Below are positions 3,814-12,868 of a DNA stretch of 64,000 nt, piece by piece. A program made the position numbers and the translations under genes. How positions within the stretch are numbered: position 1 is the first letter of the stretch; every line of letters starts with the position of its first letter. The DNA comes from Alphaproteobacteria bacterium. Lineage in GTDB: Bacteria; Pseudomonadota; Alphaproteobacteria; Micropepsales; Micropepsaceae. The stretch spans positions 1 through 64,000 of the forward strand of contig CANIAL010000004.1 of NCBI GenBank assembly GCA_947465395.1, read 5' to 3'. The notes under the pieces were generated by a model. The model was not told where the DNA came from. It saw nothing but the letters and a program-made list of their open reading frames with translations, and made no database searches.

Positions 3814-3907
3814 GGAGCTGTGGCCGAGAGGCTGAAGGCGGCGGTTTGCTAAACCGTTATAGGGTTGTAAAGCCCTATCGAGGGTTCGAATCCCTCCGGC
3901 TCCGCCA
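3814..3907 (+). tRNA. serX: tRNA-Ser (anticodon GCU)
   Basis: A class II tRNA of 94 bases including an encoded CCA. The acceptor arm GGAGCTG pairs with CGGCTCC. The anticodon loop TTGCTAA gives GCU, reading AGC/AGU. A long variable arm has a TATAGGG/CCCTATC stem, and the T-arm is GAGGG TTCGAAT CCCTC. All arms close well. No terminator is obvious after it. Confidence 0.96.
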
Positions 3908-4038: not shown

Positions 4039-4569
4039 ATGGGCATGAACGGCAATCTTCTTGTGACGTCGCTGGACGAAATGCTGGTCCAGGGCGAAAG
4101 GCTGCTGGCCTGCCTCAGTGACCAGCAATATGCGCAAAGCTGCGCCATTGCCGGCGGCGCCACCATCGGCGCGCATTACCGGCACAATCTTGAGCATTTC
4201 AAGACCATGTTCGCGGCCGCCAACCAGGCCATGATTGATTATGACGACCGTGCCCGCGATTTGCGCATTGAGAGCGAGCGGGCCGCCGCGCTGGACATGA
4301 CACGCGACTTTCGCCATGCGCTGCGCTTTCTCAGCCCGGCCCAGATGGAAAAGCCCGTGCGCGTGCAATCGCGCACATCCTATGTCGAGGCCGCGCCCGC
4401 AACCGCCGCCTCCACGCTGGAGCGCGAAATCATGTACGCCATTTCCCACTGCGTGCATCATTACGCCCTGATCGCCATGATCGCGGGCATACAGGATATC
4501 GCGCTGCCCGATGGTTTCGGCGTGGCGCCTTCCACCATCCTGCATCACCAGCAAAAGGCCACGGCCTGA
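4039..4569 (+). CDS. DinB-like four-helix-bundle protein
   Basis: The protein is 176 aa. It belongs to the DinB/YfiT-like superfamily of putative metal-binding enzymes, members of which include thiol transferases such as bacillithiol transferase. Its His pattern supports this: HYRHNLEHF near residue 50 and HCVHHYALI near residue 140. Family members coordinate a divalent metal with three His from helices 2 and 4; the exact ligands here are inferred. The start follows GGGGGCAA. It is first in a tight three-gene operon with the DedA/ATP-grasp fusion (10 bases downstream) and the NRDE protein. It is not the DinB polymerase. Confidence 0.85.
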   Translation: MGMNGNLLVTSLDEMLVQGERLLACLSDQQYAQSCAIAGGATIGAHYRHNLEHFKTMFAAANQAMIDYDDRARDLRIESERAAALDMTRDFRHALRFLSPAQMEKPVRVQSRTSYVEAAPATAASTLEREIMYAISHCVHHYALIAMIAGIQDIALPDGFGVAPSTILHHQQKATA

Positions 4570-4579
4570 AGGGCGCACC

Positions 4580-6193
4580 ATGACCGCCCTGTTGCCGGGT
4601 TTCGTGGCTGTGAAGGCCGCAACGCTTTTCTTCCTCAGCTTCTTTTCCGAAGACGCCGCCACCTTTGGTGGCGCGGCGCTGGCGGCCAGCGGCGCGCTGG
4701 CGACCCCCATCGGCTTTATCGCCTGTTTCCTGGGGATCTGGATGAGCGACATGATGCTCTATGGCCTGGCGCGGCGTTTCGGCCGCCCGCTGCTGGAGCG
4801 GCGTTGGGTCAAACGGCGCGTGCCGGCAGCCCGAGTGGCGAAAAGCGAAGCCTGGATGCAGAAGCGCGGCCTGCCGATCCTGCTGGTGGTGCGCTTTGTG
4901 CCGGGGACGCGGCTTCCCACCTATCTGGCCTCGGGCTTGCTGGCGGTGCCGTTCGGCGGCTTCGCGGCCGTGACGGGGTTCGTCGCCTTTATCTGGGTGG
5001 CGGTGATCTTCACCTTGACCCGTGAAGTTGGCGCCAGCGCGGCCGCCTTCATGGGCCATGACATCACGCTGTGGGCATCGGCGCTGGTGGCGGCGGCGCT
5101 GATCGTGCTGGCCCTCTATAATGGACGGCGCATCCTGGGCGCACTGCGCGGACCGGCGGCGCAACGCTGGCTGCAATGGGAATTCTGGCCCGCCTGGCTG
5201 TTCTATATTCCCGTGGGCGTGAATTACGCCTGGCTGGGCATCAAGCATCGCGGCTTCAATCTTCCCACCATCGCCAATCCCGGCATGTATACGGGCGGCT
5301 TTGCCGGCGAATCCAAATGCGCGACCTTGCTGGACCTTTGCCGCACCAGTCCCGATTTTACCGCCCGTTCGGTCCTGATCGCGGGCGGCGAGCGCATGGC
5401 GCAGTTCGAGCGCCAGATGGCGGCGCTGAACCTGTCCTTGCCCGTGGTGCTGAAGCCCGACATTGCCCAGCGCGGCAGCGGCTTCAAGCTGGTGCGGCAG
5501 ATGGACGAGGCGCGCGCATACCTGGCGCAGGTGCCCGCGGATGTGGTCTTGCAGGAATATGCGGCCGGGCCGTGCGAGGCGGGCATTTTCTATTATCGCT
5601 TTCCGCATGAGAAACGCGGGCGCATCTTTGCCATCACCGAGAAAGTCTTTCCCGTCGTCACGGGCGATGGCGTCCGCACGATAGAAGAGCTGATCCGGGC
5701 CGATGCCCGCGCTGCCATCATGGCGGCGACGTACCTGAAACGTCATGGCGCCATCGCGGGAAATATCTTGCCCCAGGGCCAGGTGCTGAAACTGGTTGAG
5801 GCGGGCAATCATTGCCAGGGCTGCATTTTCCAGGATGGCATGCACCTGAACACACCGGCGCTGGAGGCACGCATTGACGCCATATCCCGGGACGTGCCGG
5901 GCTTTTTCATCGGCCGCTATGACGTGCGCTATGAAAAGGACGCCGACCTGATGGCGGGCGAGAATTTCAAGATCCTGGAATTGAACGGCGCGGCATCCGA
6001 GGCCACCAGCATCTATGACGCCCGCAATTCCATTTTCAGCGCCTATCGCACCCTGTTCCGGCAATGGGACCTGGTCTTCGCCATTGGCGCTGCCAACCGC
6101 GCCAACGGCCACCGCCCCGCCACCATGATGCTGCTGTGGCGCGAATGGCAGAAGTACAAATTGCGCGCGGCTTGCTATCCGCTGGCTGACTGA
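4580..6193 (+). CDS. DedA (VTT)-domain / ATP-grasp fusion protein
   Basis: This 537-aa protein has two parts. Residues 1 to about 205 are a DedA/VTT-type membrane domain with several hydrophobic segments and the family signature around VRFVPGTRLPTYLASG. Residues about 210-520 are an ATP-grasp-like ligase domain, with a conserved opening (ANPGMY, GGFAGESK), a nucleotide-binding stretch (VVLKPDIAQRGSGFK) and the acidic metal site near EILELNGAASE-like sequence (KILELNGAASE). DedA proteins are membrane lipid or proton-coupled transporters; ATP-grasp enzymes join a carboxylate to an amine or thiol. The substrate is unknown. The start at 4580 lies just after the DinB-like gene; the end overlaps the NRDE start (TGATG). 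This suggests a membrane-coupled ligation step. Confidence 0.85.
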   Translation: MTALLPGFVAVKAATLFFLSFFSEDAATFGGAALAASGALATPIGFIACFLGIWMSDMMLYGLARRFGRPLLERRWVKRRVPAARVAKSEAWMQKRGLPILLVVRFVPGTRLPTYLASGLLAVPFGGFAAVTGFVAFIWVAVIFTLTREVGASAAAFMGHDITLWASALVAAALIVLALYNGRRILGALRGPAAQRWLQWEFWPAWLFYIPVGVNYAWLGIKHRGFNLPTIANPGMYTGGFAGESKCATLLDLCRTSPDFTARSVLIAGGERMAQFERQMAALNLSLPVVLKPDIAQRGSGFKLVRQMDEARAYLAQVPADVVLQEYAAGPCEAGIFYYRFPHEKRGRIFAITEKVFPVVTGDGVRTIEELIRADARAAIMAATYLKRHGAIAGNILPQGQVLKLVEAGNHCQGCIFQDGMHLNTPALEARIDAISRDVPGFFIGRYDVRYEKDADLMAGENFKILELNGAASEATSIYDARNSIFSAYRTLFRQWDLVFAIGAANRANGHRPATMMLLWREWQKYKLRAACYPLAD

Positions 6194-6894
6194 TGTGCAC
6201 GGTGTCGTTCCTGCCGACTGCCGGCGGTTTCATCCTGGCCATGAACCGGGACGAGCAGAAGACACGGGGCACCGCGCTGCCGCCCGCACGAAAAATGAAT
6301 GGCGCGCATGCCGGCATCTATCCCGCCGAGCCGGATGGTGGCACCTGGATCGGCGTCAATGATGCGGGTCTTTGTTTCGCGCTGATCAACTGGAATGAAA
6401 AGCCGCAAGCCCCCACCGACATTGGGCGCGGCACCATCATCCCGCAACTCCTGGCCTGTGGCGCGCTGGACGATGCGGGCAGGAAACTGGCGGCGCTTTC
6501 GCTTGCCCGCATCAATCCCTTCCGGTTGATGGGCCTGGACGGAAAACAGCTTCGCCAATGGCGCTGGGACGGCGCGGCGCTGGAAACAATCGAACAGGAC
6601 TGGAAGGCGCAGCACTGGTTTTCATCGGCGCTGGACGAAGCGGGGGTCAACACCATGCGCGCCCGGACCGTGGCGGCAAACGCCGCGCCCACAGGGCTGA
6701 ATGGTTTGCGCGCCCTGCACCGGGGCCACATCCCGGCCAGGGACGCCTATGCCATCTGCATGCACCGCCCGGATGCCCAGACGGTCAGCTATACCGAAGT
6801 GGTGGTGGACGGCGGCCGCGCCACGATGCGCTATGCGCCGGGCGCGCCCTGTGAACAGGCGCTGGGCGCCGCGCTTGAACTGGAAATGGATTAG
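6193..6894 (+). CDS. NRDE/TANGO2-family protein
   Basis: The protein is 233 aa and has the family hallmarks: an N-terminal MCT, with Cys2 as candidate nucleophile after Met removal, and NRDE at residues 18-21 (MNRDE). The family (DUF833, eukaryotic TANGO2) resembles Ntn-type hydrolases by N-terminal Cys position, and TANGO2-family proteins have been linked to heme and lipid metabolism; no reaction is settled. Translation is coupled to the ATP-grasp fusion by a TGATG overlap. The stop overlaps the stop of the converging small gene on the other strand. A ligase followed by a possible amide hydrolase is a notable pairing, but that is inference. Confidence 0.88.
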   Translation: MCTVSFLPTAGGFILAMNRDEQKTRGTALPPARKMNGAHAGIYPAEPDGGTWIGVNDAGLCFALINWNEKPQAPTDIGRGTIIPQLLACGALDDAGRKLAALSLARINPFRLMGLDGKQLRQWRWDGAALETIEQDWKAQHWFSSALDEAGVNTMRARTVAANAAPTGLNGLRALHRGHIPARDAYAICMHRPDAQTVSYTEVVVDGGRATMRYAPGAPCEQALGAALELEMD

Positions 6895-7245: not shown

Positions 7246-7716
7246 ATGACAGACAAGATTGATGGGATAAATTTGCGTATTCTTGCACTTTTGCAGGAAA
7301 ATACTGACCGCTCGGTCAACGACATCGCCGATGCCGTGGGCCTGTCCCAGAACGCCTGCTGGCGGCGCATCAAGATCCTGGAAGAAGACGGCGTCATCAA
7401 GAAGCGCGTGGCGCTGCTGGACCCCGCCAAGCTGGGCCATGGCACCACCGTCTTTGTGATGGTCAAGACGGGCGAGCATACCGTCGCCTGGATGGAGAAA
7501 TTCGCCGCCGCCGTCCACGCCATGCCCGAGATCGTGGAGTTCTATCGCATGACCGGCGACGTGGATTATCTCCTCAAGCTGCGGGTGGCCGACATCCAGG
7601 GTTATGACCGGGTCTACAAGCAGTTGATCAAGGCCGTGCCGTTGACGGATGTCTCCGGCGCCTTCGCCATGGAAGAACTAAAAAACACCACCGCCGTGCC
7701 CCTGCCCGCGCCCTGA
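7246..7716 (+). CDS. Lrp/AsnC-family transcriptional regulator
   Basis: The 156-aa protein has the full Lrp layout. An N-terminal winged helix-turn-helix covers residues about 4-60 (DGINLRILALLQEN, then SQNACWRRIKILEEDGVI). A C-terminal RAM ligand-binding domain covers about 65-145 (GDVDYLLKLRVADIQGY). Such regulators bind amino acids and often control a neighbouring gene. Its stop overlaps the start of the flavoprotein gene (TGATG), so the two are co-translated. The ligand cannot be told from sequence. Confidence 0.93.
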   Translation: MTDKIDGINLRILALLQENTDRSVNDIADAVGLSQNACWRRIKILEEDGVIKKRVALLDPAKLGHGTTVFVMVKTGEHTVAWMEKFAAAVHAMPEIVEFYRMTGDVDYLLKLRVADIQGYDRVYKQLIKAVPLTDVSGAFAMEELKNTTAVPLPAP

Positions 7717-9317
7717 TGCTGCGTCTGACGGAATTGAAGCTGCCGCTGGATCATACCGGCGACGCGCTGAAGGCGGCCATCTTCCGCAAATTGCGCATCG
7801 CGCCCGCGGCCCTTTTGTCTTTCACGGTGGTGCGGCGCGGCCATGATGCGCGCAAGAAGTCCGCCATCCAGTTCGTCTATACGATTGATGCGGACGTGGC
7901 CGATGAAGTCCGCGTGCTGGCGGCGCTGAAGGGCGACAAGCAGGTTCGCGTCGCGCCCGATACCGAATATCGCCCGCCTGCTCGCGCACCGGAAAAGGAT
8001 TTCCTGCGCCCGCTGGTGATCGGGGCCGGGCCATGCGGCTTGTTTGCCGCGCTTGTTCTTGCACAAGCCGGATATCGCCCCATCATCCTGGAGCGGGGCA
8101 AGGTGGTGCGAGAACGCACCAGGGACACCTGGGCGCTATGGCGCAAATCCATCCTGACACCGGAATCCAATGTGCAATTCGGCGAAGGCGGGGCGGGCAC
8201 CTTTTCCGACGGCAAGCTGTACAGCCAGATCAAGGACCCGCGCTTTCTGTGCCGCAAGGTGCTGCAGGAATTCGTGGCCGCGGGCGCACCGCCGGAAATC
8301 CTTACGGACGCCCATCCCCATATCGGCACCTTTCGCCTGGTCACCATGGTGGAAGCCATGCGCGAGACCATCGAAAAGCTGGGCGGCGAATATCGCTTCC
8401 AGGCCAGAGTTGACGAGCTTCTGATTGCCGATGGCCGCATGCGCGGCGTGCGGCTGGCAGATGGCGCCGAGATCGCCGCCGATCATGTGGTGCTGGCCGT
8501 GGGCCATAGCGCCCGCGATGTGTTCGAGATGCTGGCGCGGACAGGCGTGGCGATCGAAGCCAAGCCTTTTTCCATCGGCTTTCGCATCGAACATCCCCAG
8601 AGTCTGATTGACCAGGCCCGTTTTGGCGGCAAGAAACAGCTTGGCGCGGCGGAATACCGGCTGGTGCATCACGCCAGCAATGGCCGCGATGTCTACAGCT
8701 TCTGCATGTGTCCTGGCGGCACCGTGGTGGCGGCCGCATCCGAACCGGGCCGCGTCGTCACAAACGGCATGAGCCAATATTCCCGCAATGAGCGCAACGC
8801 CAACGCCGGCATCGTGGTCAGCATAACCCCGGAGGATTATGCGCCCCATGGCACGGGACCGCTGGCGGGCATCGCATTGCAGCGGCACTGGGAAGAAATC
8901 GCCTTCACGCTGGGCGGCGGCACCTATGCCGCACCCGCCCAGAAGGTGGGCGACTTCCTGGCGGGCCGCGCTTCCACTGCGCTGGGCAGCGTGGTGCCAT
9001 CCTACAAGCCTGGTGTCACACCCACGGACCTGTCCGGCGCATTGCCGGATTACGCCATCGTCGCCATCCGCGAGGCGCTGGGCCAGTTCGACCGCACCAT
9101 TCCCGGCTTCGCCATGGATGACGCGGTGCTGACGGGGGTGGAAACCCGCACATCATCGCCCGTGCGCGTGCCGCGCGGCGACAATCTGCAAAGCCTGAAT
9201 GTGCAGGGGCTTTATCCAGCAGGTGAAGGCGCGGGCTATGCGGGGGGCATTCTTTCGGCGGCGGTGGATGGCATAAAGGTGGCCGAGGCCGTGGCAGCAG
9301 ACATCATGGCGGCTTGA
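7716..9317 (+). CDS. FAD-dependent oxidoreductase (COG2509-like)
   Basis: The 533-aa protein has an N-terminal extension of about 95 residues, then a dinucleotide-binding fold starting at LVIGAGPCGLFAALVLAQAG and an FAD site ending in LYPAGEGAGYAGGI near the C-terminus. The internal signature FGEGGAGTFSDGKLYSQIKD is characteristic of uncharacterised FAD-dependent dehydrogenases of the COG2509 group. Substrate unknown; probably cytoplasmic. It is translationally coupled to the Lrp regulator, which suggests a role in amino-acid or related metabolism. Confidence 0.9.
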   Translation: MLRLTELKLPLDHTGDALKAAIFRKLRIAPAALLSFTVVRRGHDARKKSAIQFVYTIDADVADEVRVLAALKGDKQVRVAPDTEYRPPARAPEKDFLRPLVIGAGPCGLFAALVLAQAGYRPIILERGKVVRERTRDTWALWRKSILTPESNVQFGEGGAGTFSDGKLYSQIKDPRFLCRKVLQEFVAAGAPPEILTDAHPHIGTFRLVTMVEAMRETIEKLGGEYRFQARVDELLIADGRMRGVRLADGAEIAADHVVLAVGHSARDVFEMLARTGVAIEAKPFSIGFRIEHPQSLIDQARFGGKKQLGAAEYRLVHHASNGRDVYSFCMCPGGTVVAAASEPGRVVTNGMSQYSRNERNANAGIVVSITPEDYAPHGTGPLAGIALQRHWEEIAFTLGGGTYAAPAQKVGDFLAGRASTALGSVVPSYKPGVTPTDLSGALPDYAIVAIREALGQFDRTIPGFAMDDAVLTGVETRTSSPVRVPRGDNLQSLNVQGLYPAGEGAGYAGGILSAAVDGIKVAEAVAADIMAA

Positions 9318-9374
9318 CCCACGAGCGCGCGCCCGTCACCTTGCTGCTTCGTTCCGCCAGCACAGGAGATACCC

Positions 9375-9872
9375 ATGCTTCGCAAACTCGCCGTGCTGAT
9401 GCTGGTTTTGGCAACGCCCGCTATCGCCAAGGACGCAGCCAAAACCGCGATAACCGCGGCCGGTCCCGCATATGACCTGTCACGAGCGGCCAACAACCGA
9501 TTCCTGGCCGACAACAAAGCGCGGCCCGGCGTATTCGTGCTGCCAGATGGCCTGCAATACCGCATCATCCATGCCGGCAAAGGCAAGTCACCGCAGTCGG
9601 TGGGTGACCTGGTCAACGTCGCCTACAAGGGCATGCTGATCAACGGCAAGGTTTTCGATTCCACGCCCAAGGACAGTTTCGCAACCTTTCCCGCCGGGCA
9701 GTTGATCCCGGGCTGGGTCGAGGCGCTGTCCTTGATGAAGGAAGGCGACGAATGGGAATTGGTGCTGCCGCCGAGCCTGGGCTATGGCGCCGATGGCGCG
9801 GGCGGCGACATCCCGCCCAACCAGGTGCTGGTTTTCACCATGACCCTGTTCAAGGTTCGTCCCGCGCGCTGA
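9375..9872 (+). CDS. FKBP-type peptidyl-prolyl cis-trans isomerase, exported
   Basis: The protein is 165 aa. A short Sec signal peptide (residues 1-18, ending TPAIA) is followed by a linker and then a single FKBP domain from about residue 55 to the end. Characteristic residues are visible: YKGMLINGKVFDST, then IPGWVEALSLMKEGDEW and LGYGADGAGGDIPPN. It catalyses proline isomerisation, most likely as a periplasmic folding factor. A ribosome binding site (AGGAG) precedes the start. It converges on the TonB-dependent receptor with one base between the stop codons. Confidence 0.95.
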   Translation: MLRKLAVLMLVLATPAIAKDAAKTAITAAGPAYDLSRAANNRFLADNKARPGVFVLPDGLQYRIIHAGKGKSPQSVGDLVNVAYKGMLINGKVFDSTPKDSFATFPAGQLIPGWVEALSLMKEGDEWELVLPPSLGYGADGAGGDIPPNQVLVFTMTLFKVRPAR

Positions 9873-9873
9873 T

Positions 9874-12588
9874 CTAGAAGCGATACCGCAGCGTCAGGCC
9901 CGCCATGCGCGGCGGCAGCGGCACGCATTGCAGCGCCCCCGCCGTGTTGGGAATCCCGAATGACGCGTTGGGCGCCGAATTCAGCACGCCATTATATTCC
10001 GGCAGGCAGGCCGGCGTGTTGATGGCATTGTTGAGGAAGGCGGAGACATCCATGCCCTTGTCCGCCACATTCAATATGTCCAGGCGCAGGTTCAGGAAAC
10101 CGTAGGAAGACGTCTTCTGGCTGGGATCAAAGGCGCGCAGATCGGCCAAGGTGCGGCTCTGCCAGTAATAATGCGCCGTGAAGGTCACATCATCCACCGG
10201 GATACCGGCAATGTCATGCAGTCCGCTTGCGAAGATGGCGGTGGCGTTGGTCTGCCAGCGCGGCAGCGGGAAGGGCGTGCCGGACAGGTTTCTGGTACCC
10301 GCGGGCGGCAAATATCCGGCCGGCGCATTCACCGTGTAATCCACATAGCGCGCATCCAGATAACTGCCCGAGCTGCTGAGGGTGAGCTGGGGAATCGGCT
10401 TCAGCGTAATCTCCCACTCCGCGCCATAGATGCGCGCCTTGTTGGCGTTCAGGGTGAGCGGATCATTGGTGGTGTTGAGGCAGGCATTGGCGCTGAAGGC
10501 GGCCTGTGTGCAAGGCCCGCCGCCCGCCACCGATGCGACGGTGATGTTGGGCAACGTCGCCAGGACTTGCAGGTTGTGATAGTGCGAATAATAGGCAGAG
10601 AAGTTTGTGCGCAGCGGCATGCCCAGCACGTTCCAGTCCGACTTCACGCCCACTTCGTAATCGGTGACATCTTCCGGCTTGGCCTTGAAGGCCGCAGGCT
10701 GGATGGCGGCGCTGTTGATGGCGCCGGAGCGGTAGCCGCTGCGCATGGTGGCATAGACCATCATGCCGTCCCACAGATCGTGATCCACCGCCAGGGTGTA
10801 AGTGGGCTTGTGATAGCTGCTGTTGACGTTGACGGCGCAGGCCGCCAGCGGCAGCGGTTTGCCGTTCACATCCGTCAGGGCGCAGGCCGTGGTCTGGCCA
10901 GAATAGGAAATGCCGTTCAGCACAAAGGGCGTGGCCGAGAATTGGCCATAGGGCGCGAACGGCCCCGGCGCCACGGCCGTTGACGGCGTGGTGATGGACT
11001 TCAGCGCCAGATAGGCGCTGCGCTCGTCATAGGTATAGCGCAGGCCCGCGGTGACGCGGGTGTCAGGCAGGATGGCATAGGTGGCTTGCGCGTAACCGGC
11101 ATAGCTGGTGTTGCGCTGGCCATTCTGGGTGCCGTCCTGAAGCGTGATCTGGCGGTTGGTGACGGGCGCGGGTGTCACGGCGCTGGGCAGATAGAGATAA
11201 AACAGCCCGCCATCCTTGGGGCTGTTTTCCTGGAAGAAGAAAAGCCCCGTGGTCCATTTCAGCCGCCCGTCCAGGGCGGCGCCATTGACGGTGACTTCGG
11301 ACTGGAAGGAGCGATAGTCCGGTACCTGGTATTCATAATTGGCGGTGTCATAGGGAAGACCGCGCCCCACCGACGTGCCGCGATTGTCCCACCAGCGATA
11401 GGCGGTCAGCCATTTGACATTGGTGCCGTCGGGAAAACTCTTGTTCACCACGCCCGACACGGTCTGGTAATGGCCCACATCCAGGTTGCTCACCGTCTGC
11501 TCGGTGCTCCAGAAGCCGTAATTCTTTTCGCGAGCGATGGAAGCCAAGAGGGAATTGTAGGCGGCAGGATTGGTGGAGACGCCGCTGGCGCCCGCCAAGG
11601 TCACCGTCGTGTAATAGGGCGCGATGACATGGCCCAGAAGATCGGTGAAGCCGGTGCAGCTTCCGGGAATGTTGCAGATGGCGGTCTTGCCGTTTCGAAG
11701 TCCGCTGCCGGGGAAATAGCCAAGATCGTGATAGGTCGAGCCGGTGTCATGCTCGGCAGAAATATTGGCGCGCAGCAAAACGCTGAAACTGTCATCCACC
11801 AGCCACTTCAGCGAAAAATTGCCCGCAATCTTGTTGGAACCCATGGCGGGCTGGTTGTTGCGATAGCCGGTGGCCGGATCGAAATAATAATTCTGGATAT
11901 AGCCCTTGGCATTGCTGATCTGGCCAGCGGCGCGGAAGAACAAATTGTCGGCCAGGGGAATGTTGATGGCACCCTGGATCTCGCCGCGCACATGATCGCC
12001 GCCGGTGGTCTGCAGATAGCCACCGAATTTATCGCCCGGCTCGCGCGTCTGGTAGAGGATGGCGCCGCCGGTGGAATTTCGGCCCACCAGCGTGCCTTGC
12101 GGGCCTTTCAGCACCTGCACCTGTTCAATGTCGAACAGCGCGGCGGAAAGTCCCACCGGCCGGGCCATGTAAACGCCATCCATGTAAACAGAAGCCGCCG
12201 TGTCGAAGGACATGACCGACTGGCCGGAGCTGGAATCAATGTCGCGCTGGCCGCGAATGGTGACGTTGAGCGTGTCCTGCCGGAAGGTGGTGGGGGCGAT
12301 ATAGACCGAGGGGCTGACATAGCGCAGGTCTTCGATGGTGCGGATGGAAAGCCGGTCCAGATCGTCCTGGGTCAGGGCGGTGATGGAGATGGGTACGCTC
12401 TGGATATTCTCTTCGCGCTTGCGGGCGGTGACGATCACCGTCTCCAGCCCCAGCCCGCCATTGATCGGCTGGGCGGCCGGGCTGGGTTGGGCAGGGGTGT
12501 CCTGCGCCAGGGCGGCCCCGGAAGCAAACTGCCCCAGGGTCAAGGCAGCGAGCATCGCGGCGCCAAGCAAAAAGCGGTTTTTTGTCAT
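9874..12588 (-). CDS. TonB-dependent outer-membrane receptor
   Basis: The product is 904 aa. Residues 1-28 are a signal peptide (ending GAALAQ). A plug domain follows (LETVIVTARKREENIQSVP, then VQVLKGPQGTLVGRNSTGGA). The long C-terminal part is a beta-barrel ending in aromatic LRYRF, as expected for BAM recognition. The ligand is unknown; there is no iron- or sugar-uptake gene beside it. I chose the ATG at 12588, with GGGGA upstream, rather than a longer frame starting near 12741, because it places the signal peptide at the N-terminus. The 280 bases upstream separate it from divergent mlaA and hold both promoters. Confidence 0.95.
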   Translation of the reverse strand: MTKNRFLLGAAMLAALTLGQFASGAALAQDTPAQPSPAAQPINGGLGLETVIVTARKREENIQSVPISITALTQDDLDRLSIRTIEDLRYVSPSVYIAPTTFRQDTLNVTIRGQRDIDSSSGQSVMSFDTAASVYMDGVYMARPVGLSAALFDIEQVQVLKGPQGTLVGRNSTGGAILYQTREPGDKFGGYLQTTGGDHVRGEIQGAINIPLADNLFFRAAGQISNAKGYIQNYYFDPATGYRNNQPAMGSNKIAGNFSLKWLVDDSFSVLLRANISAEHDTGSTYHDLGYFPGSGLRNGKTAICNIPGSCTGFTDLLGHVIAPYYTTVTLAGASGVSTNPAAYNSLLASIAREKNYGFWSTEQTVSNLDVGHYQTVSGVVNKSFPDGTNVKWLTAYRWWDNRGTSVGRGLPYDTANYEYQVPDYRSFQSEVTVNGAALDGRLKWTTGLFFFQENSPKDGGLFYLYLPSAVTPAPVTNRQITLQDGTQNGQRNTSYAGYAQATYAILPDTRVTAGLRYTYDERSAYLALKSITTPSTAVAPGPFAPYGQFSATPFVLNGISYSGQTTACALTDVNGKPLPLAACAVNVNSSYHKPTYTLAVDHDLWDGMMVYATMRSGYRSGAINSAAIQPAAFKAKPEDVTDYEVGVKSDWNVLGMPLRTNFSAYYSHYHNLQVLATLPNITVASVAGGGPCTQAAFSANACLNTTNDPLTLNANKARIYGAEWEITLKPIPQLTLSSSGSYLDARYVDYTVNAPAGYLPPAGTRNLSGTPFPLPRWQTNATAIFASGLHDIAGIPVDDVTFTAHYYWQSRTLADLRAFDPSQKTSSYGFLNLRLDILNVADKGMDVSAFLNNAINTPACLPEYNGVLNSAPNASFGIPNTAGALQCVPLPPRMAGLTLRYRF

Positions 12589-12868
12589 TTTTTCGTCCCC
12601 GTATGCCCAAAGCTGTACTGGAAGCGGCCTGCGACTTGAAGTGCGGCACGGCGTCCAGAACCGCCCGTCTGCTTGTTGACCATCCCCATGGCCAAATTCA
12701 GGCCATCCCGGCCCGGATGCCCTTGCTGGACTTGGGGACATCTGGTGACAAATGCCGCTTATCCCCTTGTAGCCCCTGCCGGAATGGCACCAATGCTGAT
12801 ATCGTGAGTTATAGTCGAAGAATCGGCGGGTAACCGTTCCTTATTTGTAATCCTGTATTTGGTGGGTC

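Follow-up and report, generated by a model that had tools for sequence, protein, structure and literature searches.

A dinB-VTT/ATP-grasp-NRDE operon from a Micropepsaceae genome and its probable connection with bacterial aminolipids

What might a DinB-like protein, a DedA/ATP-grasp fusion and an NRDE (TANGO2-family) protein accomplish together? The question is raised by three tightly packed genes at positions 4039-6894 of the window, i.e. the whole 64,000-nucleotide stretch that was analyzed (positions 1 to 64,000 of contig CANIAL010000004.1 from the alphaproteobacterial assembly GCA_947465395.1). An earlier note, made from the letters alone, had described a compact operon and proposed a small membrane pathway acting on an amide-linked group, carried either by a lipid or by a low-molecular-weight thiol. 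Our analysis revealed that the three genes constitute a real module that is not a chance arrangement, and its gene neighbourhoods, its co-occurrence within genomes and the folds of its proteins indicate that it is very probably connected with bacterial aminolipids, the membrane lipids that contain an amino acid and no phosphorus. The features of the operon are the following:

4039..4569, + strand: DinB-like protein, 176 residues from the ATG at 4039, or 174 from the ATG at 4045
4580..6193, + strand: VTT/DedA-ATP-grasp fusion, predicted membrane-bound ligase, 537 residues (ATG 4580, stop TGA 6191-6193)
4676..5017, + strand: VTT/DedA domain of the fusion, Pfam PF09335 match over residues 33-146 (E=6e-15)
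5177..5212, + strand: EFWPAWLFYIPV signature at about residues 200-211, joining the last membrane helix to the ATP-grasp part and also found in stand-alone relatives
5312..6190, + strand: ATP-grasp ligase domain, assigned from conserved ATP-site residues, a model and fold matches
6193..6894, + strand: NRDE/TANGO2-family protein, predicted cysteine N-terminal nucleophile (Ntn) amidase or acyltransferase, 233 residues (ATG 6193-6195)
6196..6198, + strand: Cys2 codon of the NRDE protein, predicted nucleophile after removal of Met; C2 is 95% conserved in 41 relatives
6244..6255, + strand: NRDE motif, residues 18-21; R19, D20 and E21 are 97% and N18 92% conserved in the same 41 relatives

Coordinates, Pfam matches, profiles and models confirmed that all three genes lie on one strand in a single tight operon. 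The gap between dinB and the fusion is +10 bases, and that between the fusion and the NRDE gene is -1, the last base of the fusion's stop codon being the first base of the NRDE start; translational coupling of the three genes is therefore likely, as judged from this spacing. A further in-frame ATG for the fusion exists upstream at 4511, and a start at that position would overlap dinB. A large antisense open reading frame at 4430-6112, together with similar antisense clusters in relatives, was discarded as a shadow of the coding strand.

Searches of sampled genomes from four phyla with the ATP-grasp profile (A1) recovered the family in 14/398 genomes of Pseudomonadota, 25/241 of Verrucomicrobiota, 46/247 of Bacteroidota and 21/199 of Planctomycetota, or about 4-19%; to call the proposed pathway small is an understatement. 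Among the named carriers are Vibrio sp. THAF191d, Photobacterium, Salinivibrio, Paracoccus, Azospirillum, Komagataeibacter and Variovorax, whose records label the gene 'D-alanine--D-alanine ligase', 'VTT domain-containing' or 'hypothetical'. Flanks of about 6 kb on either side of representative genes were then scored with profiles for 80 loci from at least four phyla, which were picked by ATP-grasp alone with their neighbours unselected, except for ten named contigs found with the whole fusion. A neighbourhood survey had been set beforehand as the test that could refute the grouping; DinB was present at 50 and NRDE at 42 of the 80 loci, a co-occurrence beyond chance. By our own arithmetic, in a genome with several thousand genes the probability that such partners lie only a few genes apart at random would be well below one percent per locus. 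At least one of the two partners was found at 13/20 loci in Verrucomicrobiota, 14/20 in Bacteroidota, 8/17 in Planctomycetota, 8/12 in Pseudomonadota and all ten named contigs. The arrangement recurs in all four phyla at about 25-60% protein identity, overlapping genes are frequent in the relatives' loci, and the gene order varies from dinB-fusion-NRDE in the clade of the window to dinB-NRDE-fusion in many others and VTT-ATPgrasp-dinB-NRDE-YHS-olsF in gammaproteobacteria, which means that the association has survived rearrangement. In the ATP-grasp tree it appears in both deep halves, the root split being weakly supported.

Most of the functional information is carried by partners that were absent from the earlier note, namely an alpha/beta-hydrolase (37 of the 80 loci), OlsB/OlsA/OlsF-type enzymes, YHS proteins (26 loci) and DoxX-like proteins. 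The recurring neighbours include GNAT N-acyltransferases resembling OlsB models and PlsC-type O-acyltransferases resembling OlsA models, and fused neighbours of about 580 residues match OlsF at E=4e-130. In total, olsB occurs at 24 loci, plsC/olsA at 23 and olsF at 14, and 38 of the 80 have at least one Ols-type gene within the fetched flanks. At L139 and L161 (survey loci are cited by L numbers, genomes by G numbers) the order olsB-plsC-dinB-[hydrolase-VTT-ATPgrasp] is kept with 4-base overlaps, and L140 is similar. Since the matches of these neighbours to the curated OlsB, OlsA and OlsF models (E from 1e-38 to 4e-130) all lie under the equivalog cut-offs, the substrate may be ornithine or another amino acid. 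At the level of genomes, the aminolipid acyltransferase domain PF13444 was found in 68/80 ATP-grasp-positive genomes and in 30/80 comparison genomes from the same phyla (Fisher p=7e-10), a comparison that is partly circular, as olsB often lies inside the operon, and is confounded by phylogeny and draft completeness. The difference was seen in Planctomycetota (11/14 against 1/20), Bacteroidota (23/30 against 9/26) and Verrucomicrobiota (20/22 against 10/20). Ten of the 12 positive genomes lacking PF13444 have proteins of the GH3 family, to which the alternative ornithine-lipid synthase OlsH belongs (PMC12493201). Two small genomes of the Verrucomicrobiota group, G553 and G580 (L136 and L137), carry very divergent hydrolase-VTT-ATP-grasp fusions and neither PF13444 nor GH3. 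The genome of the window encodes an OlsB of alphaproteobacterial type (NF052555, E=1e-91) on contig C6. Thus, the membrane pathway with an amide-linked group on a lipid that had been proposed gains support, and amino-acid lipids are the lipids to which the evidence points.

Within the fusion, the VTT/DedA domain scored above its Pfam cut-off (56.2 against 33.9 bits), and the conserved residues E24, D25, D57 and those of the RFxPGxR motif (R105, P108, G109 and R111) are kept in at least 98% of 59 sequences, with F106 at 86%. The junction signature, EFWPxWxFYxP, is also well preserved over 80 sequences (E201 98%, W203 90%, P204 96%, Y209 92% and P211 95%), and its WEFWPAW core is invariant or nearly so in 11 sequences. 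For the ATP-grasp domain, the Pfam RimK match was weak (E=0.11). Single-sequence searches of the PDB with the window fusion, and likewise with the window DinB-like protein, gave nothing useful, and family profiles were needed; that of the ATP-grasp family matched cyanophycin synthetase and glutathione synthase at E values of 1e-7 to 5e-8. The AlphaFold model of the fusion has a predicted local distance difference test (pLDDT) value of 92, exceeding 90 over most of the ATP-grasp domain, and matched the ligase domains of GshF, CphA and Ddl (E from 7e-10 to 1e-6), the top match being bifunctional glutathione synthetase. Residues K292, E333, D448, E467 and N469, which include the D-E-x-N pattern of the ATP-grasp Mg/ATP site, are 97-100% conserved over 80 sequences. 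Family profile and high-confidence model together secure the predicted ATP-grasp identity. Homologous VTT-ATP-grasp fusions are found at L002-L005, L007, L008, L118-L120, L124, L131, L134, L158, L160 and L176, and a VTT domain was scored at 59 of the 80 surveyed loci.

Three more specific identities were considered for the fusion and rejected. The undecaprenyl phosphate transporter UptA scored 35.4 bits where the curated equivalog cut-off is 250, and cyanophycin synthetase 25.0 where it is 850. D-Ala-D-Ala ligase, the label used in some records, reached 11.8 of 500 bits with the archaeal Ddl model, with no bacterial Ddl model at E<=1, and was also rejected for the relative L186 (15.6 against 505 bits).

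The NRDE protein matched the Pfam TANGO2 family (PF05742) at E=4e-11, with 44.0 bits against a cut-off of 22.6. Its model (pLDDT 95) matched isopenicillin N acyltransferase and TANGO2 (9bwa, 8sv7) in the PDB, both at E=4e-11, as well as penicillin V acylase and bile salt hydrolase at E of about 1e-8, and thereby predicts a Cys-Ntn amidase/acyltransferase fold with a function as amidase or acyltransferase. C2 is invariant in a set of 35 NRDE sequences that were picked for a Met-Cys start. The DinB-like protein of the window lies just under the cut-off of Pfam DinB_2 (E=1e-4, 23.0 against 24.8 bits), that of L186 lies above it (26.0 bits), and the family profile matched the DinB structure 3dka at E=0.005. 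The conserved-histidine site of the DinB superfamily was present as H47, H135, H138 and H139 in all 50 relatives, in which R46, Y66, R69, R127 and E128 are invariant as well and H44 is 94% conserved. These residues would fit an intact predicted metal site together with a cluster for an anionic ligand.

At 37 loci the relatives of the fusion are proteins of 818-1076 residues in which an N-terminal alpha/beta-hydrolase precedes the VTT and ATP-grasp parts, with Pfam E values of 1e-26 to 1e-31 for the hydrolase in well-preserved examples. In Paracoccus denitrificans (PD1222) the hydrolase, VTT and ATP-grasp proteins are encoded by three separate neighbouring genes, respectively PDEN_RS25810, PDEN_RS24475 and PDEN_RS24485. 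At L142-L145, L132, L133 and L135 the fused hydrolase is degenerate while the VTT and ATP-grasp parts remain conserved; next door to the fusion at L142-L145 lies a separate, divergent hydrolase gene with its motif intact.

How could these proteins work together? Aminolipids made by OlsBA, OlsF or GlsBA retain a free carboxylate; ATP-grasp ligases of the CphA/GshF/Ddl fold convert a carboxylate to an acyl phosphate and transfer it to an amine; and DedA proteins move lipids across membranes. From these properties we infer a scheme, covering substrate, direction of reaction, leaflet, amine and the place of DinB, in which the operon would serve to tailor and turn over acyloxyacyl aminolipids of the ornithine/glycine-lipid class produced by OlsBA, OlsF or GH3-type enzymes. 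In this scheme, (i) the membrane-anchored ATP-grasp ligase would use ATP to activate the free alpha-carboxylate of the aminolipid as an acyl phosphate and join it to a small amine, either taurine or a further amino acid, so that a lipid of the dipeptide or tauro type would result; (ii) the DedA/VTT domain would hold the lipid at the membrane and probably move it or the product between leaflets, so that the fusion may couple modification to translocation; (iii) the fused or adjacent alpha/beta-hydrolase would serve in O-acylation of the lipid, as OlsI does in planctomycetes, or in its deacylation; (iv) the NRDE protein, as a cysteine Ntn amidase/acyltransferase, would hydrolyse or exchange an amide of these N-acyl amino acids; and (v) DinB, a predicted metal-site enzyme, would act at some step. 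Amidation of the aminolipid carboxylate by the ATP-grasp domain is, in our judgement, an evenly balanced proposition. Of the readings considered, a lipid-bound amide ligase is the most economical and the most likely; the nearest folds, CphA, GshF and Ddl, are all peptide-type ligases.

Beyond the circularity and confounding of the PF13444 comparison, a number of observations weigh against this scheme. The PF13444 difference was not significant within Pseudomonadota (14/14 against 10/14, p=0.10), and GH3 proteins are common in Bacteroidota anyway, occurring in 3/13 comparison genomes there that were picked as PF13444-negative. The window operon itself contains no Ols genes, olsB being on a different contig, and no plsC/olsA match lies near that olsB within the 11 kb inspected. 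The window fusion has no hydrolase domain and a YHS_seleno protein was not detected in the window's genome. Neither DinB, NRDE, Ols nor YHS is found nearby at 19 of the 80 loci. The nucleophile serine is absent from 10 of the 37 fused hydrolases (L142-L146, L132, L133 and L135-L137), so hydrolase activity is dispensable in some lineages, and the hydrolase was rejected as an obligatory enzyme of the module. Across the surveyed loci no neighbour gene identifies the amine, nor did the neighbours of the lone ATP-grasp genes (L132-L137, L153-L156, L160, L170 and L172-L174) reveal it. Finally, Asn157 (oxyanion) and Lys166 of TANGO2 appear in the NRDE protein, from sequence order, as Ser145 and an invariant Arg156, and its activity therefore cannot be assumed. 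In the paper on human TANGO2 that describes the Asn157/Lys166 pair, the other Cys-Ntn hydrolases compared have Arg at the Lys166 position (PMC13044924).

Two other readings have to be weighed against carboxylate amidation, and we consider each of them unlikely. In one, the ATP-grasp ligase would make the first bond, between a free fatty acid and an amino acid, in the manner of OlsH, and the hydrolase would add the second acyl chain, which would make the module a fourth self-contained aminolipid synthase. In planctomycetes precisely these two steps are carried out by OlsH, a GH3 enzyme, and OlsI, an alpha/beta-hydrolase (PMC12493201), hydrolase and ATP-grasp share one polypeptide at the 37 loci described above, and G553 and G580 are positive genomes with neither PF13444 nor GH3. 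However, the module is often located beside a complete olsBA or olsF, where it would be redundant unless two aminolipids were made, many of the hydrolase copies have no nucleophile, and the carboxylates used by the closest ATP-grasp folds are those of amino acids or peptides.

The other reading, just as doubtful in our estimate, is lipid repair or turnover, in which NRDE, DinB and hydrolase would take aminolipids or N-acyl amino acids apart, the released pieces would be joined again by the ATP-grasp enzyme, and DedA would recycle a carrier such as undecaprenyl phosphate. Its attraction lies in the three hydrolase-like components, in the resemblance of the NRDE fold to bile salt hydrolase and penicillin acylase, and in a VTT domain that is closest to UptA (E=1e-8 in the window and 9e-16 in L125), although the UptA score is far under the curated cut-off and the operon is shared with synthesis genes.

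A role in metal or haem handling or in stress protection is very improbable. In that case TANGO2 would act as a chaperone for haem and DedA as an envelope-stress protein, DinB and YHS would be metal proteins, and the ligase would be left with a side function; TANGO2 has indeed been debated as a haem-trafficking protein, and YHS and DinB are frequent at the surveyed loci. Yet the neighbours include no recurring gene for the transport of haem or metal, the Ols partners would be left unexplained, and the crystal-structure paper on human TANGO2 found haem binding to be non-specific and a Cys-Ntn hydrolase site (PMC13044924), with acyl-CoA binding via NRDE also reported (PMC11867700). The low-molecular-weight thiol pathway, which was the other alternative of the earlier note and would pair a DinB thiol transferase with a glutathione-synthetase-like ligase, can draw on the thiol transferases of the DinB superfamily and on the top fold match of the fusion, but we regard it as the least credible, as genes that make or use thiols do not recur in the neighbourhoods and the ligase is membrane-fused, with lipid acyltransferases as partners.

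The ATP-grasp protein of the window grouped with six Verrucomicrobiota sequences (support 100/99, 61% identity). A complete 16S rRNA gene at 172-1657 on the - strand had its best match in the plasmid collection, about 84%, among alphaproteobacteria (Ensifer/Sinorhizobium), which suggests a deep alphaproteobacterial lineage. Given an alphaproteobacterial 16S gene and OlsB together with a Verrucomicrobiota-type ATP-grasp, the sequences make acquisition of the operon by horizontal transfer likely. A tRNA-Ser(GCT) gene at 3814-3907 ends 131 bases 5' of the operon and, with the Verrucomicrobiota affinity of the ATP-grasp protein, could be a place where transferred DNA integrated. On the 3' side lie a gene for an Lrp/AsnC regulator (7246-7716), which overlaps by one base the gene of a flavin adenine dinucleotide (FAD)-dependent protein (PF21688, 7716-9317), an FKBP isomerase gene (9375-9872) and, on the other strand, a TonB-dependent-receptor-like gene (9874-12741); these genes, 7246-12741, gave no sign of membership in the module.

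Among the relatives, a small DoxX-like membrane protein of 126-144 residues (17 profile hits) is encoded mostly between the YHS gene and dinB and is possibly another module member:

DoxX-like protein: L005:3109-3516, L122:5232-5666, L147:8166-8552, L149:4511-4900, L151:4401-4799, L152:8520-8900

In Bacteroidota a LysE-type amino-acid exporter-like gene, called by eye, directly adjoins the ATP-grasp gene (L011, L147, L149 and L151-L154). At L190 (5089-8026), on the conjugative plasmid pA of Komagataeibacter xylinus, a stand-alone ATP-grasp gene is found near a gene of an iron-containing redox enzyme family. This species is an acetic acid bacterium related to the genus in which cerilipin, a lipid containing ornithine and taurine, was described.

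Should the scheme hold, the module would offer candidate genes for the synthesis of dipeptide-type aminolipids such as the TLR2-active flavolipins, whose serine-adding step has been stated to be unknown, with no gene assigned to it (PMC10191378). Undescribed aminolipids would also be suggested for a considerable minority of the Bacteroidota, Verrucomicrobiota and Planctomycetota. The family offers a natural fusion of a DedA lipid-transport domain to an enzyme of predictable chemistry, and the analysis as a whole arrives at a specific, testable reaction. The module may further point to a role for the poorly understood TANGO2 family and, if so, would provide bacterial genetics for TANGO2, a protein of disputed biochemical function whose loss makes humans severely ill. 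A bolder generalization, to which we attach little credence, is that the module is the missing machine for head-group extension and recycling of serine-glycine, taurine-ornithine and further dipeptide lipids, differing by phylum, and that its NRDE member shows the TANGO2 family to have arisen as, and in humans perhaps still to be, an amidase/acyltransferase of N-acylated amino compounds.

The component families of the module are known, and their assembly is, as far as we searched, undescribed in the open-access literature: PubMed Central held no paper on the combination of ATP-grasp, DedA, TANGO2 and DinB, none on tauro-ornithine lipid by that name, and, for flavolipin with ATP-grasp, only one review, which has ATP-grasp enzymes among its references. 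The serine-glycine and taurine-ornithine aminolipids (PMC12493201) and a glycine-serine-ornithine aminolipid (PMC8433624) are known to exist, and an ATP-driven amide bond on an aminolipid carboxylate, as in flavolipin and tauro-ornithine lipid (cerilipin), would suit an ATP-grasp ligase; Komagataeibacter, an acetic acid bacterium, carries the ATP-grasp gene, and a link to either lipid is proposed by analogy. The OlsB/OlsA and OlsF systems resemble the module in that their genes stand beside or inside its operon at nearly half of the loci and OlsB is encoded in the window's genome, whereas those enzymes make the lipid and no gene of the window operon is an Ols enzyme. In Vibrio cholerae a putative operon of four genes, VCA0649-VCA0646, ends with an ornithine-lipid synthase gene, VCA0646 (PMC12186959). 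OlsH/OlsI of Singulisphaera likewise combine an ATP-dependent ligase with an alpha/beta-hydrolase acting on aminolipids, but OlsH is a GH3/adenylate-forming enzyme and not an ATP-grasp protein, and no DedA, DinB or NRDE protein was reported with it (PMC12493201). With CphA, GshF and D-Ala-D-Ala ligase the window family shares the fold and the ATP-site residues, and it is set apart by its membrane fusion, the WEFWPAW signature, an identity of at most about 21% and scores that fall far short of the curated cut-offs for CphA and RimK. The NRDE protein has the Cys2, NRDE motif and Ntn fold of the TANGO2 family and differs in the apparent Asn157-to-Ser and Lys166-to-Arg replacements and in an operon context with aminolipid genes. 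Lastly, the VTT domain with its conserved E, D and RFxPGxR residues is common to UptA, TMEM41B and other DedA/VTT proteins, while in the module it is fused to an ATP-grasp ligase and often to an alpha/beta-hydrolase as well.

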